From the NCBI RefSeq assembly GCF_016862895.1, contig NZ_BONV01000021.1, positions 62,001 to 126,000 of the forward strand: a DNA stretch of 64,000 nt, given 5' to 3'. How positions within the stretch are numbered: the first letter of the stretch is position 1; each line of letters opens with the position of its first letter. Below, in pieces: positions 245 through 7,440 of the stretch. This DNA is from Planotetraspora kaengkrachanensis (GTDB taxonomy: Bacteria; Actinomycetota; Actinomycetes; Streptosporangiales; Streptosporangiaceae). Made by a program: the position numbers and the translations under genes. Below the pieces are notes generated by a model that was not told where the DNA came from, made no database searches, and was given only the letters and a program-made list of their open reading frames with translations.

Positions 245-1513
245 TCACCCAGGCTCGGCGCCCAGTCCCTCCGGCCGGGGCCGCCGCACGGGCGTCAGCG
301 TGGCCGCCACGGCGATCGTCACGCACCCGAACCCCGCGACCAGGCACGCCGCGGCCACGCCGTGCCGCGAGGCCGCCCAGGTGAGGAGCCCGGCACCGAG
401 CGGCCCCAGCGCAGAGTGGATCGTCCAGAAGGCCGACGTCACCCTGCCGAGCAGCGCGTCGGGAGTGACCTCCTGCCGAAGCGACATGGACGAGATCCCC
501 GCCGCACCGGTGCAGAAGAGGAAGACCGTCGCCAGCACCGCCACCGCCGGGACGCTCGCCGCCAGGCCGACCCCGGCGACCGCGACGCCGCCCAGCGCGT
601 AGCAGCCGATCCACAGCGGGCCGAAACCCAGGGATCTGCGCAAGGCGGGCGCCAGGAGGGCGGCCGCCAGCGTCCCCGCGGTCGCCGCCGCCAGCACGTA
701 CCCTGCCGCGGTGTCGGGCTGCTCCAGATCGTGCTTGAGGTGGTAGATCAGCACGTCGGACATGCCGTACGTGACGAACGTCAGGACCGAGAGCAGGACC
801 GTCAGCGTCCGCAGGACCGGGTGGCGCCACAGGAACCGCGCGCCGGCCAGGAAGTCGTCGAGGGCTCCCCGCCGCGCTCCCCCGTGCCCGGCGGGCTCCG
901 GCGCGGGAGTCGTACGGGCACGGGGGCGCACCAGGCACAGGCCCGCGGCGGAGACGGCGAAGGTCGCCGCGTCGATCCCGATCGCGGCGGCCGGACCGAG
1001 CAGCGCGGAGACCGTGCCGCCGAGCGCGGGGCCGACGAGGCTCGCCACGGCGTAGGTCCCGTAGAGATGGCTGTTGGCCTTCATGACCTGGCCCTCGGCG
1101 ACCAGCGCGGGCACGACGGTGACGTACGTGACCGAGAAGAGCATCCCGATGGCGGCCCCGAGCGGCACGATCACGAAGATCAGCCACGTCTGCGGGGAGA
1201 CCAGCCAGACGATCGGGATGACCGCGTAGAGGACGGCCCGGACCGCGTCACAGGCGATCAGCAGGCGGCGGCGGTCCAGCCGGTCGGCCGTCATCCCCGC
1301 GAACATCCCGGCGACGATGCCCGCCGCGCCGGCCAGGGCCGTCACCAGCCCCATCTGGGTGACCGACCCCGTCGCGTGGAAGACGAGCAGGGGCAGCGCG
1401 ACCGCGGAGAAGGAGTCGCCGGCGACCGAGAGGGTCTGGACCCCCAGGAAGATCAGGAAGTCGCGGTTGGCCCGCAACGGCGGCGAGCTCCCCGGTCCCT
1501 CGTCCCCCGCCAC
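245..1513 (-). CDS. MFS transporter, EntS/MFS_3-like exporter
   Basis: This 422-residue integral membrane protein has about twelve hydrophobic segments, typical of a major facilitator drug or siderophore exporter. The loop after the second helix carries the MFS motif A variant around residues 75-85 (GMTADRLDRRRLL). The overall pattern, starting RDFLIFLGVQTLS, resembles the EntS/MFS_3 branch. The GTG start at 1513 has GGAGGG about 8 nt upstream. It stands alone on the minus strand, between the secreted-protein fragment downstream and the molybdoenzyme pair upstream, and no neighbour identifies the substrate. Family is confident; substrate is unknown. Confidence 0.88.
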   Translation of the reverse strand: MAGDEGPGSSPPLRANRDFLIFLGVQTLSVAGDSFSAVALPLLVFHATGSVTQMGLVTALAGAAGIVAGMFAGMTADRLDRRRLLIACDAVRAVLYAVIPIVWLVSPQTWLIFVIVPLGAAIGMLFSVTYVTVVPALVAEGQVMKANSHLYGTYAVASLVGPALGGTVSALLGPAAAIGIDAATFAVSAAGLCLVRPRARTTPAPEPAGHGGARRGALDDFLAGARFLWRHPVLRTLTVLLSVLTFVTYGMSDVLIYHLKHDLEQPDTAAGYVLAAATAGTLAAALLAPALRRSLGFGPLWIGCYALGGVAVAGVGLAASVPAVAVLATVFLFCTGAAGISSMSLRQEVTPDALLGRVTSAFWTIHSALGPLGAGLLTWAASRHGVAAACLVAGFGCVTIAVAATLTPVRRPRPEGLGAEPG

Positions 1514-1604: not shown

Positions 1605-2069
1605 TCAGGACGCCACGACCAGAGCCTGCGGGGCCGCGTGCCGCATGCGGGTGCGCAACCACAGGAGCTGAACGGCGAGCTCGCCTCCGCAGCGGCGGAC
1701 CACGTCGAGCAACTCGTCGTCGCGCGCCCCCAGGGCGCCCTGGGCGATCATCGCGCAGGCGATGTCGCACTCGGTGACCAGCAGGTAGAGGTCGTGCAGA
1801 TCGCGCAGCAGTCCGAGCCCGCCGGGCCTGGTCCCCGCGAACAGCGGCTGATGGAGCCGTTCCGGCTCCTGGGCGGGCGACGTCCACGGCTCGTAGCGCC
1901 GGACGAAGGGTTCCAGCCATCTGGCCTGGTCCCGGCACTGTACGGCCAGGCGCTCGCAGACGCCGTACATGTCGGGCTCATGTGGGTGGCCGCGCCTGAT
2001 CTCGCGGAACGCCTCCGCCAGCGCGGTTTGTGACCTGTGGAGCAGCCGCAGGTAGTGGGCGAGGTGCAT
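1605..2069 (-). CDS. Small helical protein coupled to the molybdopterin oxidoreductase
   Basis: This is a 154-residue, Trp- and His-containing, mostly alpha-helical soluble protein that I cannot assign to a named family. Its start (MHLAHYLRLLHRSQTALAEA) and the later helix DLYLLVTECDIACAMIAQG suggest a four-helix, ferritin-like bundle, but the paired Glu/His metal motifs are not clear. The ATG at 2069 follows the stop of the molybdopterin oxidoreductase by three bases. The strong AGGAGGT site that drives it lies inside the end of that gene, so the two are surely cotranscribed and translationally coupled. A role as accessory factor or stability partner is inference from position only. Confidence 0.7.
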   Translation of the reverse strand: MHLAHYLRLLHRSQTALAEAFREIRRGHPHEPDMYGVCERLAVQCRDQARWLEPFVRRYEPWTSPAQEPERLHQPLFAGTRPGGLGLLRDLHDLYLLVTECDIACAMIAQGALGARDDELLDVVRRCGGELAVQLLWLRTRMRHAAPQALVVAS

Positions 2070-2072
2070 CGC

Positions 2073-4259
2073 TCATACCTCCTCTAGCCGTTGGGAGACC
2101 TCAACAGGCACGACGCCGTCCGCCTCCGCACCTCCTCCCACTTCCGCGAGCTCGGCGGCCCCGGCGTCCGGGGCGGCGTCCGGCGTCACAGGCACGGTCG
2201 CCACGCTGTATATCGGCTGTTTGGACACCGGGTCCCAGTAGAGCGGGCGCCCGTCTCCGATCGCCTCCGACGAGGGTTCGTAGTCCACGACGTGGAGGAA
2301 GGCGCGCCCGCGCGCCTCCTTGGCGAGATAGGACTCCGCGCCCCACTCGGCGCCCGTGGCGAGATCGTGCCCGAAGCTCTGGCAGACGCCGGAGTCGGTG
2401 GCGAACCGCCCGCCCGCGTAGAGCCGCTCGGCGCCGTGGCCCGACGAGGGGGTGCACGGCCACTGAACGCCGCTGCCGCCGCGCAGCCGCTCGTAGGTGA
2501 TGCCGGTGTAGTCGCACGGCCTGCCCTTCGAGCAGGCCTTCCACGCCTCGAACGCCGATTCGGCGTCGTGCCAGCCGATGAGGGGCGCCCCGTCCCGGTC
2601 GCGGAAGTCCATCCGCCGGGCGTAGTCGAGGAAGATGTCCAGGTCGGCGCGGGCCTCCCCGGGCGGTTCAACGGCCCGCTCACAGAGGTGGACCGACCGG
2701 TCGGCGCCGGTGACGGTCCCCGGCTTCTCGCCCCAGCCCGCGGCGGGGAGGACCACGTCGGCCAGCCGGGCGGTCTCCGTCAGGTAGAGGTCCTGGACGA
2801 CGAGGAACAAGCCCTCACTCTCGAGGACGCTGCGGACCCGGTCGGCGTGGGGCAGCGAGACCACCGGGTCGGCGGCGGAGACCCACAGCAGCCGGATCGA
2901 GCCCTGCTCGGCGTAACGGAAGATCTGCATGGCGTGGGTCGGCGGCCCCCAGTGCGGAATGGCCGCGGGATCGACGTTCCACAGCTCGGCGAGCTCTCGC
3001 ACGTGGTCCGGGTTCTCCCAGTTGCGCATTCCGGGGAGGTCGCCGGTCGCCCCCGTCTCCCTGGCGTGCTGACCGGCGGGCCGGCCTGTCATCTGGAACA
3101 GGCCCGCACCCGGGCGGCCGAGCATCCCGCGGAGCAGGTGGAGGTTGTTGACCTGGCACGCCGCGGCCGTCGCCTGGTTGGACCGGTAGAAGCCCGGCAG
3201 CACGGCCGACACCAGCCGCTCGCAGGAGCCGAGGATCTCGGCGGCCTGCTCGATCAGGGCCGCCGGCACGCCGCAGATCTCGGCCGCGCGTTTGGGCGGG
3301 TACGCCTCGACGACCCGGCAGAGTTCGGCGAAGCCGATCGTGTGCCTGGCCACGTACGCCGCGTCGACGCGGTTACCGGCGATCAGTTCGTGCATCAGGG
3401 CGTTCATCAGCGGGACGTTGGTGCCGGAGCGGACCGGCAGGTGGACGTCGGCCTCCTTGGCCACCTGCGCGTCCCGCGAATCCACCGCGATCATGGCAGG
3501 CGGGCGCGGGCCGAGGCGGCGGTCGAGCATCCGCTCCCACACCACGCGGGACTCGGCCATGTCGTGCCCCCACAGGGCGATGGCGTCGCAGTGGTCGACG
3601 TCGGTGTAGGAGCCGGGCTGCCCGTCCGCGCCGAAGCTCGCCCTGAGCGCGGCCGCCGCCGTCGCGTCGCCGACGCGGGTGCTGCCGTCGACGTGCGGGG
3701 TGGCGATCCCGGCCTTGGCGATCACCGCGAGCGTGTAGTGCTCCTCGAGGAGAAGCCGGCCGCCCGTGTAGAACCCCACGCGGCCCCAGCCACCCGGAGG
3801 GCCGAGCAGTTCCTTCGACCGGCGGGCGACCGCGTCCATGGCCGTGTCCCAGTCGCATTCGACCAGGCGGCCCTCCTGCCTGATCATCGGGCTGGTCAGC
3901 CGGGCGCCGTCGCCGGTGGACGGACCGTACCGGTCCCGGGGGTCGATCCTGCCGTGGTTGACGCGGTCGGCCGACCTGCCGCGCACGCCCACGATCCGGC
4001 CGTCCCGCACCGCGATGTCGAGCGCGTCGCCGCTCGAGTGCGTCGCCGAGACGTTCTGGATCCAGGCGCCGACGTCGGCCTCGGTCACCCCCTCGTCGAG
4101 GAAGGTGTCGACGCGCACGGGCCAAGGACTGCCGAGGCCGATCTCCGAGGGAAGCGCGTCGCGCAGGCGTCCGGGAAGTGCCGCGGCGAGCCGTTCCACC
4201 CCACCCGGAGGTCCGTACGGCGTGCGCCTTCCCCCGTGGTCGGCGATCGGCTCAGGCAC
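2073..4259 (-). CDS. Molybdopterin oxidoreductase lacking usual Fe-S and Mo-ligand cysteines
   Basis: A 728-residue protein of the DMSO reductase/formate dehydrogenase/nitrate reductase superfamily. The GTG start at 4259 is set by GGAGG six bases upstream; an in-frame extension to about 4931 has no such site. The N-terminal strand that normally carries the four [4Fe-4S] cysteines reads VSATHSSGDALDIAVRDG (residues 70-87), with no cysteine. In the first molybdopterin segment, where the Mo-coordinating Cys, Sec or Ser is expected, the sequence is STRVGDATA with Gly197. The C-terminal dinucleotide-binding part is well kept (LADVVLPAAGWGEKPGT near the middle). It may be a cofactor-binding enzyme with unusual metal coordination, or one that lost redox function. 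It forms an operon with the following 154-residue gene. Confidence 0.85.
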   Translation of the reverse strand: MPEPIADHGGRRTPYGPPGGVERLAAALPGRLRDALPSEIGLGSPWPVRVDTFLDEGVTEADVGAWIQNVSATHSSGDALDIAVRDGRIVGVRGRSADRVNHGRIDPRDRYGPSTGDGARLTSPMIRQEGRLVECDWDTAMDAVARRSKELLGPPGGWGRVGFYTGGRLLLEEHYTLAVIAKAGIATPHVDGSTRVGDATAAAALRASFGADGQPGSYTDVDHCDAIALWGHDMAESRVVWERMLDRRLGPRPPAMIAVDSRDAQVAKEADVHLPVRSGTNVPLMNALMHELIAGNRVDAAYVARHTIGFAELCRVVEAYPPKRAAEICGVPAALIEQAAEILGSCERLVSAVLPGFYRSNQATAAACQVNNLHLLRGMLGRPGAGLFQMTGRPAGQHARETGATGDLPGMRNWENPDHVRELAELWNVDPAAIPHWGPPTHAMQIFRYAEQGSIRLLWVSAADPVVSLPHADRVRSVLESEGLFLVVQDLYLTETARLADVVLPAAGWGEKPGTVTGADRSVHLCERAVEPPGEARADLDIFLDYARRMDFRDRDGAPLIGWHDAESAFEAWKACSKGRPCDYTGITYERLRGGSGVQWPCTPSSGHGAERLYAGGRFATDSGVCQSFGHDLATGAEWGAESYLAKEARGRAFLHVVDYEPSSEAIGDGRPLYWDPVSKQPIYSVATVPVTPDAAPDAGAAELAEVGGGAEADGVVPVEVSQRLEEV

Positions 4260-4536
4260 CTGGCACCTCCGCGGTGGCGCGACAGCTCCGACATTGCTCC
4301 GTGACAGCGACATGGCTCCGACGACCTGCGCGAACGAGGCTGCTCGTACCCGGCGGCGCATCTCTGACCCCGGAAACGGAGGGACTGACCGGTTTCTTTT
4401 CGAATAATTTCCATAGGGGGTTAATGACGTTGTGTGTCCGGTGTGGGGGGAGCATGATCTGTAAAGTGCGTTTACTGAGGAATGTCGGCGCGAGCGATCG
4501 GGACCTCGGGCGTCTCCGCGTCGCTGTGGGGTGGGA

Positions 4537-7440
4537 ATGGACGGTCGTACGACCTCGCCGGCCGTGACCGGCTCTCCCGCGCCTGCGCGGGGCGCACCGG
4601 CAGGGCCTCTGGTCGGACGGCAGGACGCGCTGGACATGTTGCGGAGCGCGCTGAGCATCGGCGACGGCTTCCGCTTCCTGACCCTGGTGGGCGACCCGGG
4701 AGCGGGCAAGACGCGCCTGCTGTCCGAACTGACGACCCTGGCCGCCGCGCAGGGGTTCACCACGCTGTGGGGAAGAGCCGCCGAGTACGAGCAGGTCATG
4801 CCGTACAGCGCGCTGGTGGACGCGCTCGACGACCACATCGACGCCCGGCACTCGGACGTGGTCGGCGCCGTGGGAGCCGCGCAGGCCGCCATGCTCGCGG
4901 GAGTGTTCCCCGCCCTGGCCGCGCAGGACACCGGCGAGACCGTCGCCGACGACCGCAGCGGGCTGGCCCGCTACCGGCTCTACCGGGCCCTGCGCCAGAT
5001 GATCGACGCCCTGGCCGGGTCCAACGGGCTCGTCCTCATCCTCGACGACGTCCACTGGGCCGACGAGAGCTCCATGGAGTTCCTCGACCACGTCGTCCGC
5101 CACCCTCCGGGCGGTCCCGTGCTGGTGGCCGCGGCCTACCGCCCGGCGCAGGCCCCGCCCCGGCTCGCGACGCTCGTGGCCGCCGCCGGGCCGCGCGGTC
5201 ACGAGGTCACGGTCGGGCCGCTCAGCCGAGCCGAGGTCGACCAGTTCCTCGGCCCCGAGGTCGCCCGCAGCCGGGGCAAGGCCCTCTACGAGGCCAGCGG
5301 CGGCAACCCGTTCTACCTCGAGGCCCTCGCGCGGATGGACCACACCGAGGCCGGGGAGCTGCCGCCCACCGTGCCGGCCGTGCTCCAGGTCGAGCTCGGG
5401 GTCCTGTCCCCCGACGCGCTGCGGGTCGCGCAGGCCGCCGCGGTGGCCGCGGACGAGTTCGAGCCGGCGATCGCCGCGGTGGCCGCCGAGGTGTCCCAGG
5501 CCACGGCCCTGGCCGCCATCGACGAACTCGTGGAGCGCGACATCGTCAGGACCCGCGGGGGGCGTTTCAGCTTCAGGCATCCCCTCGTCCGGTGGGCCGT
5601 CTACGAGTCGGCCGCGGCCGGCTGGCGGGTGGGCGCCCACGCGAGGATCGCCGCCCACCTGGCCGAACTTGGTGCGCCGTCCACCGTCCAGGCCCATCAC
5701 GTGCAGCGATCCGGTTCGTTCGGCGACCACAAGGCCGTCGGCGTCCTGCTCGCGGCCGCCCGCACGGTGATCACGCAGGCGCCCGCCACCTCGGCCCACT
5801 GGCTGCAGGCCGCGCTGCGGCTCATGCCGGACGACCACGCGACGCGTGAGGACCGCCTGGCCCTGCTGATGGAGCTGAGCTGGGCCCAGGGCGTCAGCGG
5901 GAGGCTGGCCGAAGGACGCGACACCGCACGCGAGCTGCTGCGGCTCCTCCCCGGTGACGACTATCCCCGCAGGGGCCGGGCCGCCCGGGTGTGCGCCCTC
6001 ATGGAGCGCCAGCTCGACCGCCCGCAGGAGGCCCGGGCGCTGCTTCTCGACGAGCTGAGCCGCATGCCCAACCCGCGGTCGGCCGCCGCGGTGCCCCTGC
6101 GGATGCGGCTGGTCGCAGAGAGCCTCATGCGCGTCGACTTCCGCGCCGCCCAGGCCGTCCTCGACCTGATGCCGGACGCGGCCGACGACTGGGAGCCCGG
6201 CCTCGCCGTCGCGGTGGCCGCGCTCCGCCCGATGCCGGCCTACGCGGCGGGCCGCGCCGCAGAGGCGCTCGGATACGCCCGGACGGCCGACCGCCTGCTC
6301 GCCTCCGTGCCCGACGACCATCTCGCGGAGTGGCTCGACGCCATCGCCTGGCTGTGCTGGGCCGAGATCAACCTCGGCCGGTACGGAGACGCGCTGCGCC
6401 ACTTCGACCGGGCTGCGGAGGTGGCCCGCGCGACCGGCCAGAGCTACATCCTCACCAACCTGCTCGCCGGGCGGGCCAAGACGTTGGTGACGATGGGACG
6501 GCTGGCCGACGCGTCGGCCACCGCCGAGGAGTCCGTTGAGGGCGCCAGGCTGCTCGACTCGGGCCAGCAGCTCGTGTTCGCGCTCACCCAGGTCTGCCTG
6601 GCCGCGTCGTGGGCGGGTGACGACGAGACCGCCCTGCTCGCCGGGAACGAGGCGGTGCAGCGCGGCGTCGGAGGCGGCGAGGTGTGGGGGGCGCAGGCCC
6701 GTTACGCGCGGGGGCAGGCGCTGGTCAACGCCGGGCGGCTGGAGGAGGGCGCCGAGGCCGTCCTCGACGCGTGCGACAGGTTCGAGTCACCGCGCCTGGA
6801 CCGGGCGACGCTGACGTCGTCGTGCGAGGTGCTGGCCCGGGTGGCGGCGTCCCGCGGCGACGAGGCAGGGGCGATGACGTGGGCGGCTCGCGCGGCGCAG
6901 CTCGACGACCGGGGACTCGAGACGCCGTCCGGGATCGTCCCCCTCGCCCGGGCCCACGCGTTGCGGGGCAAGGACCCGGCCGCGGCGGCCGCCGCCGCGC
7001 AGGAGGCCGCCCGTCTCCTGTCGCGTGGGCAGCGCGACCTCGACGCCGGCAGGGCACTGCTGACGGCCGGGCTCGCCCACATGGAGGCGGGCGACAAGAG
7101 CGCGGCGCGCGACAGCCTCAGGTCGGCCGCCGCCGCGTTCGACGCGTGCGGGGCGCGCGGCCTCAAGGCGCAGACCGATCGTGAGCTTCGCCGCCTCGGC
7201 GTCCGCGTGAGCGGTGCGCCGAGCGCGGCCGGCGCCGGCCGGGACGCCGCGGACCTCGGGCTGTCGCCAAGGGAGCTCGAGGTGGCCCGGCTGGTCGCCG
7301 AAGGGCTCACGAACCAGCAGATCGCCCAGCGGCTGTTCCTCAGCGTGCGGACGATCGAGACCCATCTGTCGCGCATCTTCACCAAGCTCGACGTGTCGTC
7401 ACGGGTGGGCGTGGCCACCGCGCTCAACCGTCGTCACTGA
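4537..7440 (+). CDS. LAL-family LuxR transcriptional regulator with AAA-type ATPase
   Basis: This large regulator of about 967 residues has the MalT/LAL layout. An N-terminal P-loop ATPase carries Walker A GDPGAGKT near residue 52 and Walker [13 protein letters not shown] near residue 165. A long TPR-like helical region follows, and the last 60 residues form a LuxR/FixJ helix-turn-helix ([20 protein letters not shown] onward). ATG at 4537 and GTG at 4531 are both possible starts and neither has a good ribosome site. The upstream 4260-4536 region is relatively AT-rich and holds a small inverted repeat, GTAAA-5-TTTAC, at 4461-4475. The hydrolase gene 86 bp downstream and the oxidase after it are the obvious candidate targets. 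Confidence 0.9.

Follow-up and report, generated by a model that had tools for sequence, protein, structure and literature searches.

What becomes of a molybdoenzyme when the sites for its cofactors have disappeared? The question is raised by a gene in a stretch of 64,000 nucleotides from Planotetraspora kaengkrachanensis, which was analysed as a whole and is called the window in the following. The initial annotation of this DNA described the gene product as a molybdoenzyme which lacks the Fe-S cysteines and carries Gly at the expected Mo ligand, and proposed that the metal either has no protein ligand or is held by the adjacent Asp198, as in the respiratory nitrate reductase NarG. Our main reading, to which we give a probability of about two in three, is that the protein is a cofactor-free MopB pseudoenzyme derived from a NapA/NasA/formate dehydrogenase-like Mo enzyme and kept as a structural or regulatory scaffold together with a four-helix partner protein. 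The features on which the argument is built are collected in Table 1.

Table 1. Positions in the window of the MopB-derived gene, of sites within it and of neighbouring genes
Feature	Position	Strand	Basis
MopB-derived protein, 728 aa, without Fe-S cysteines, Mo ligand or MopB C-terminal domain	2073..4259	-	frame, Pfam, AlphaFold
Former Fe-S motif, residues 71-78; S71/H74/D78 here, Cys in three-Cys rows	4026..4049	-	alignment
Arg120, same in 98 of 98 pocket-keeping and 22 of 22 pocket-losing rows	3900..3902	-	alignment
Gly197 (Mo-ligand position) and Asp198	3666..3671	-	alignments; ligand position aligned to NapA
Glu511, same in 98 of 98 pocket-keeping and 22 of 22 pocket-losing rows	2727..2729	-	alignment
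Stretch with Cys576, Cys582, Cys602 and Cys626	2382..2534	-	alignment
RPLYW, residues 671-675, where about 115 residues of the relatives' MopB C-terminal domain are gone; WDPVSKQP directly after	2235..2249	-	alignment
Codons of C-terminal EEV and stop, GAGGAGGTATGA; look also like the partner's Shine-Dalgarno	2073..2084	-	sequence, tail comparison
Partner protein, 154 aa, predicted four-helix bundle; start 3 nt past the MopB stop	1605..2069	-	frame, AlphaFold, comparison
MFS transporter, downstream of the partner gene	245..1513	-	Pfam
Divergent AAA/TPR/LuxR-type regulator gene	4531..7440	+	Pfam

The MopB-derived protein and its missing sites

The gene is a single open frame, in which 728 codons are followed by a stop; it starts with GTG and has a GGAGG six bases upstream of this start codon. 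The product falls within the MopB/DMSO reductase superfamily by its match to PF00384 (residues 120-544, 147 bits, cut-off 24). Of the Fe4S4 domain PF04879 Pfam finds only a sub-threshold trace (15.9 bits, cut-off 22.7), and the C-terminal domain PF01568 (Molydop_binding) was not found by Pfam in the window protein. All 25 NCBIfam models among the matches listed score below their cut-offs. TIGR01591 gives 316 bits (cut-off 666), the NasC model 287 (1100) and the NapA model 203 (904), so that the protein does not reach the curated thresholds for NapA, NasA and formate dehydrogenase; the pocket-complete relatives L074, L033 and L077 are likewise below these cut-offs. The NuoG model TIGR01973 gives 83.8 bits (cut-off 470) in a match that starts only at profile position 218, the QrcB model NF041783 gives 62.4 (440), and TIGR03129, which is a generic model of formylmethanofuran dehydrogenase subunit B and not specific for FhcB, gives 35 (327.8).

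The initial annotation had asked for a predicted structure to be superposed on formate dehydrogenase. The AlphaFold model (pLDDT 82.9, pTM 0.86) has confidence below 50 at residues 395-407, 670-672, 685-691 and 693-717, and also locally within the N-terminus. It superposes on formate dehydrogenase 7bkb_D with Z 38.1 (543 residues, 1.9 A) and on NapA 2nap with Z 36.0 (598 residues, 2.0 A) in the VIA comparison. Among the nearest relatives by sequence in the PDB, FdhF 7qv7 ranks first and NapA 2jim fourth. The predicted fold is thus MopB and still NapA-like despite the lost sites. A surface salt bridge which matters for the stability of complex I is described for NarG and NuoG in a passage of PMC5123574, and Arg120 and Glu511 may be the partners of a bridge of this kind.

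The relatives came from a scan of genome contigs, which gave 79 distinct loci, the nearest of them in Planotetraspora, and with the window 80 aligned rows. Residues 70-79 of the window protein read VSATHSSGDA, with no Cys at 69-79, and the relatives' Fe-S motif CVLCSNGC falls on S71, H74 and D78. Residues 193-201 read STRVGDATA, and the Cys of the relatives' NTRLCTATA aligns to Gly197. That this column is the Mo-ligand position follows from NapA of Desulfovibrio desulfuricans, whose NPRLC is matched by NTRLC in L074, a relative from Nitrospira; the Cys is NapA Cys140 by count along the alignment. Both observations of the initial annotation, the absent Fe-S cysteines and the Gly at the ligand position, are therefore correct. 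A Cys elsewhere that takes over the ligand position, named there as a possible refutation, was not found in these alignments. As far as the sequence tells, the window protein, with Gly197 and no C-terminal domain, has no Mo/W-bisPGD site with a Cys, Sec, Ser or Asp ligand, a type of site which is not universal within the superfamily. The missing ligand Cys is not an assembly error in one genome, since it is also absent in four separately deposited Planotetraspora genomes, with Gly in L009, L010 and L073 and Trp in L011.

Across the 80 rows, positions 71, 74 and 78 are Cys at all three (23 rows) or at none (57 rows), and there are no intermediates. The fourth Fe-S position is Gly in 50 rows and Asp in 30, so the whole family departs from the usual four-Cys motif; L001 and L002, two other molybdopterin enzymes of the same genome, have Cys there. 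At the ligand position the three-Cys rows and most of the Fe-S-less rows carry Cys; Planotetraspora and Microbispora vary there between Gly, Trp, Gln, Asp and Cys, and the distant row L046 has Gly.

The missing C-terminal pterin-binding domain was not mentioned in the initial annotation. It is absent from the alignment in five Planotetraspora rows (window, L009, L010, L011, L073), and Pfam found no PF01568 in the window protein, L009 and L011. The domain gives 97-116 bits in L033, L013, L074 and L077, 92 in L046, 69 in L012 and 43 in L017; in L109 and L110, from another genus, it is likewise unrecognisable by eye. No free or split copy was found in the window's genome at the PF01568 level, because all seven matches lie inside open frames of 680-941 aa elsewhere.

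Order of the losses and selection on what remains

In a first comparison 62 pocket-keeping rows were set against 17 rows from Planotetraspora and Microbispora, L046 being left out of the keepers. In the keepers 203 columns show an invariance of at least 97%, and the window protein retains 155 of these and loses 48; 25 of the lost columns are within the missing C-terminal domain. Fourteen losses were assigned to the pocket: K108, Q168, N193, C197, T198, N233, Q355, Q359, N391, Q393, N398, T463, N464 and K685. The loss is not confined to the pocket, since nine of the 23 losses outside the C-terminal domain (W9, D119, Y174, G186, L196, P261, A275, L472, A688) fall outside the pocket set. R262 and R400, which are lost in other members of the same clade, were added to the fourteen to give 16 scored pocket columns. 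By count along the alignment of L074 with D. desulfuricans NapA the lost residues map to NapA K49, Q111, N136, C140, M141, M308 and Q312 among others, several of which we take to line the molybdenum site; the assignment of the 16 columns to the pocket rests partly on background knowledge of NapA, and a search of open-licence literature for publications which name the active-site residues of FDH-H or NapA gave none.

Another 60 loci were then included. L001 and L008 were omitted beforehand; of the resulting 141 rows 19 near copies (at least 99.5% identity) were removed, and with L002 as outgroup there were 121 family rows. All 16 pocket residues are present in 98 rows (the keepers), 13 in L046, and 0-7 in the remaining 22 (the losers), where L012 has seven, the others 0-2 and the window protein two. 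The counts for the first set are partly circular because the 16 columns were picked from the first alignment; among the independent rows from the further loci all 36 new keepers have 16 of 16 and the five new losers 0-2. To judge from this near all-or-none pattern, the pocket is lost nearly as a whole. Within residues 1-640 the 98 keepers (L046 again left out) share 183 invariant columns. Of these, 126 persist in 20 or more of the 22 losers and 13 in no more than two, while 44 are intermediate.

The complete pocket is found in all 23 three-Cys rows and, out of the 121, in 75 Fe-S-less rows, among them Streptomyces, Mycobacterium, Planobispora and others. The latter group is unusual, as its members are candidate Cys-ligated Mo enzymes which have no Fe-S cluster and work with a four-helix partner.

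The tree was a quick one by maximum likelihood, computed after the trait columns had been taken out of the alignment, with SH-aLRT support and no bootstrap. On it the Fe-S state changes once and the pocket state changes once, and the 22 losers form one branch (SH-aLRT 100). The Fe-S motif was probably lost rather than gained, a direction which is given by the root, set by the single long outgroup branch L002, and by the fact that superfamily members usually have the Cys motif. L012, from Planotetraspora sp. A-T 1434, is within the loser branch; it may still bind something, because it keeps the Cys ligand and seven of the 16 pocket residues. L083 and L025 have Cys at the ligand position in the altered context DTRGCAAAA, as L101 does with D193, C197 and A198; since the surroundings have changed, the Cys of L083 and L025 may have reappeared by chance instead of having been kept as the ligand. 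By alignment, the relatives display three stages: a three-Cys Fe-S motif with a Cys ligand, a pocket without the Fe-S motif, and loss of the pocket in Planotetraspora, Microbispora and relatives. A further refutation named in the initial annotation was the finding of relatives which keep Cys. There are relatives of this kind (the 98 rows with all 16 residues). They show what the ancestral protein was like and leave the window protein without a Mo site.

Selection was estimated as approximate dN/dS values (NG86), and only pairs with dS within 0.05-0.9 entered the genus medians. Over the six pairs among the window, L009, L010 and L073, which share the VGD motif and had already lost the pocket, the MopB gene has dN/dS 0.10-0.22, and over all 15 Planotetraspora pairs 0.10-0.30. 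The medians are 0.24 for Planotetraspora and 0.29 for Microbispora (55 pairs) among the loser genera, 0.34 for Planobispora (3 pairs), 0.27 for Streptomyces (105), 0.15 for Hymenobacter (6), 0.12 for Arthrobacter (6) and 0.11 for Mycobacterium (10). According to these medians the constraint on the stripped genes is about that of pocket-complete Streptomyces and Planobispora and weaker than in Mycobacterium and Arthrobacter, the Planotetraspora value being about twice the latter two. The partner gene has a median of 0.09 in Planotetraspora (15 pairs) and 0.46 in Microbispora (3 pairs), where it is less constrained. These ratios indicate that in Planotetraspora the remaining MopB protein and the adjacent four-helix gene are still under purifying selection.

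The partner gene and the neighbourhood

The 154-aa partner has no match in Pfam, DUF1641 included, or in NCBIfam. With the window's partner as the only query a relative was found at E 1e-3 in 56 of the 79 loci. When 37 partners were used as queries, 36 of them drawn from the same loci, the number was 76 of 79 at E 1e-4, and in all 76 the partner gene adjoins the MopB gene or is fused to it; L064, L066 and L069 gave no relative in this search. The fusions place the partner domain at the MopB C-terminus and are found in L063, L075, L077, L079 and L081. Adjacency and these natural fusions in distant relatives suggest that the two proteins probably form a complex. Window and L009 are 100% identical in the partner and 94% in the MopB protein.

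AlphaFold predicts the partner as a four-helix bundle (pLDDT 89.6) with helices at residues 2-27, 32-59, 83-115 and 118-151; nine Microbispora partners have in-frame extra sequence between the second and third helix. The best Foldseek match points to a weak resemblance to ferritins (9bts_A, E 1.7e-3, TM 0.64, 12% identity), and nothing reached E 0.001 or better; four-helix bundles are common. Invariant or nearly so in the 37 partners are D90, L91, W137, Q148, H28, Y59, P69, L87, L88, Q134, A146 and L150. There is no Glu among them, and so the set does not provide the Glu/His ligands of a ferritin-like di-iron site.

The MopB protein ends in an ERxEEV-like tail in 20 of the 22 losers and, in a slightly different pattern over a shorter stretch, in 2 of 99 keepers. 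We considered this conserved tail as a new docking motif; the idea is weakened because the EEV codons in the window also form the likely Shine-Dalgarno sequence of the partner.

In L009, L012 and L017 a gene of similar size and orientation to the divergent regulator lies upstream, a likeness of layout alone. The predicted genes around 10 loci, inspected by eye, appear to include isochorismatase-like, thioredoxin-like and ferritin-like ones in one or two loci each, and no constant neighbour besides the partner was seen among them. The window's genome encodes other molybdopterin enzymes. At an E limit of 1e-60 no second copy of the family was seen in it; the only other match was L002 on contig C50, a NasC-like enzyme with 36% identity.

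Possible explanations and comparison with known systems

That the protein is still a Mo/W enzyme, with bis-PGD bound either through Asp198 as in NarG or without any protein ligand, was the proposal of the initial annotation. Asp198 adjoins the ligand position, other molybdopterin enzymes are encoded in the genome, and AioA and IdrA, by their entries in Table 1 of PMC10100899, hold Mo without a protein ligand. However, Asp198 is present in only four of the 22 losers (window, L009, L010 and L073) and is replaced by A, G or T in the other 18; being unconserved, it was rejected as a NarG-type ligand. A metal without protein ligand is also unlikely, the precedent of AioA and IdrA notwithstanding, as K108, Q168, N193, N233, Q359, N391, Q393, N464 and K685 are gone in the window protein along with the ligand, and so is the C-terminal pterin-binding domain, of which no split copy turned up in the genome. 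We regard a surviving Mo/W enzyme as highly improbable. It is easier to imagine, and in our view still unlikely, that the pocket has been replaced by a site for another cofactor or metal, for example at Cys576, Cys582, Cys602 and Cys626, or for a nucleotide. All four cysteines are present in 22 of 22 losers, and Cys576 and Cys582 have no Cys counterpart in the alignment with NapA 2jim. They are, however, equally conserved in the relatives which keep the pocket (90, 97, 93 and 94 of the 98 keepers, respectively) and thus did not arise as a replacement, and Cys602 and Cys626 align to Cys of NapA.

The stepwise loss of functional sites and of a domain might suggest a non-functional relic on its way to being lost, and dN/dS above that of the Arthrobacter and Mycobacterium homologues and the loss of some invariant non-pocket positions agree with this. 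Against it stand the dN/dS of 0.10-0.22 between species already without the pocket, a Planotetraspora median not above those of pocket-complete Streptomyces or Planobispora, the 126 of 183 invariant columns which persist in at least 20 of the 22 losers, and the partner, in which window and L009 do not differ. That every one of the 22 loser rows has an open frame counts for less, because the rows were extracted as open frames. A relic seems to us an unlikely explanation. According to the scaffold model, the Fe-S cysteines were lost first with the molybdopterin pocket retained; one Streptosporangiaceae lineage then shed most of the pocket residues including the Cys ligand, and in Planotetraspora the C-terminal pterin-binding domain went as well, steps which the comparison of the sequences shows. 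The window protein would bind neither Mo-bis-PGD nor an Fe-S cluster and carry out no redox chemistry, and would be retained for a scaffolding role, structural or regulatory, in a complex which it would form with the four-helix partner, like FhcB or the MopB domain of NuoG.

We also lean, somewhat, towards a wider reading in which a Mo enzyme of the nitrate-reductase/formate-dehydrogenase branch became cofactor-free in living actinobacterial lineages with all stages surviving, and took on a new role with a dedicated four-helix partner. Surviving in that reading would be members with both Fe-S and Mo, members with Mo alone, L012 with its pocket half stripped, members whose pocket is empty, and finally those which have an empty pocket and lack the C-terminal domain in addition. 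The loss lies within a single bacterial family. Proteins from the different stages can be produced and studied next to one another, and the order in which the cofactors went and the change from enzyme to scaffold thereby become open to test. It should be noted that 12 of the 15 plasmid relatives among the matches listed are annotated 'nitrate reductase', a label which would mislead if carried over to the stripped members. A search of open-licence literature gave no published account of such a case, which may be in print elsewhere; what appears to be new is the branch concerned, the prior absence of Fe-S in Cys-ligated relatives and the intermediates that are still extant.

Several known systems resemble the one described here. 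For one of them, FhcB, we know of no four-helix partner. It is listed in Table 1 of PMC10100899 as a MopB homologue without Mo/W-bisPGD, which in methylotrophs serves as scaffold for the other subunits of the formyltransferase/hydrolase complex; according to the same source FhcB is related to FwdB, whereas the window protein has only 35 bits on TIGR03129. NuoG/Nqo3 of respiratory complex I has the MopB fold and has lost molybdopterin, as stated in a passage of PMC5123574. NuoG differs in having Fe-S clusters, including N7 at the place where the window's motif was lost, and the window protein has no such cysteines. QrcB and ActB are precedents for Mo-free MopB proteins and are described in part of PMC6303296 as components of membrane-bound assemblies that also contain cytochrome and Fe-S subunits, in which they differ from the window protein; ActB is a MopB-like subunit fused to an Fe-S subunit in alternative complex III. 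NapA, NasA and formate dehydrogenase share the fold and include the closest sequence relatives in the PDB, but the window protein lacks their Fe-S motif, Cys/Sec ligand and C-terminal domain. In ForCE the MopB subunit ForC has a small, adjacently encoded partner, ForE (DUF1641), which is essential for activity according to an excerpt of PMC8808070; the partner in the window has no DUF1641 match, and ForC, unlike the reading proposed here for the window protein, actively interconverts formate as an oxidoreductase. In the relevant passage of PMC10100899, which surveys the superfamily, only three independent losses of the cofactor are counted, among distantly related lineages. Mo-free MopB proteins are thus already known (NuoG/Nqo3, ActB, FhcB, QrcB), and the window case looks like a further independent one of which intermediates have survived.

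The C-terminal region and the partner gene

The four cysteines Cys576, Cys582, Cys602 and Cys626 of the window protein are kept in the alignment in 90-97 of the 98 relatives with a complete molybdopterin pocket (16/16 columns) and in all 22 members of the stripped clade (0-7/16, window protein included); judged from sequence they could form a disulfide or a metal site. The last codons of the gene, coding for EEV, double as the likely Shine-Dalgarno sequence of the following four-helix partner gene, and this overlap may be the reason why the stripped clade has a conserved tail. In L109 and L110, relatives from another genus of the same bacterial family, N/D/G-rich low-complexity sequence appears to stand in place of the C-terminal pterin-binding domain. 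Nine Microbispora partner genes (L016, L017, L020-L023, L025, L047 and L083) carry in-frame extra sequence in the interval between helix 2 and helix 3.

Elsewhere in the window the alpha/beta hydrolase gene adjoins the GMC-type FAD oxidoreductase gene (pair at window:7470-11036, + strand).

Features and the basis of their assignment
Feature	Location	Strand	Basis
Stretch with Cys576, 582, 602, 626	window:2382-2534	-	conservation in alignment
C-terminal EEV codons, likely Shine-Dalgarno of partner gene	window:2073-2084	-	sequence
Alpha/beta hydrolase gene	window:7470-8642	+	Pfam
GMC-type FAD oxidoreductase gene	window:8700-11036	+	Pfam
MopB relative L046	L046:5989-8502	+	distant actinobacterial MAG row

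Glycine at the ligand position in L046

The initial annotation proposed, as one of two options should its alignment hold, a molybdenum without protein ligand for the window protein. L046 has Gly at the ligand position, yet alignment scoring finds 13/16 pocket residues kept, and the C-terminal domain is present (92 bits in a profile search). Relatives fetched with L046 as query have Cys at this position in 30/30 cases. By its sequence L046 would fit the proposal more closely than the window protein does; it is a single MAG in which an error is possible.

Fe-S motif and annotation of relatives

A large actinobacterial group (e.g. L033, L039, L013) lacks all Fe-S cysteines and has a complete pocket with Cys ligand (39/80 rows, 75/121 in the larger set); its members are candidate Fe-S-free, Cys-ligated Mo enzymes. 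Family members are found in 21 plasmid records from Streptomyces, Rhodococcus, Deinococcus and others (e.g. NZ_CP071045.1, NZ_CP070611.1, NZ_AP026561.1), and among the plasmid matches listed 12/15 are annotated "nitrate reductase". The Fe-S form (23/80 rows, e.g. L074, L034, L068) has only three of the usual four cysteines, the fourth position being Gly or Asp in 80/80 aligned rows.
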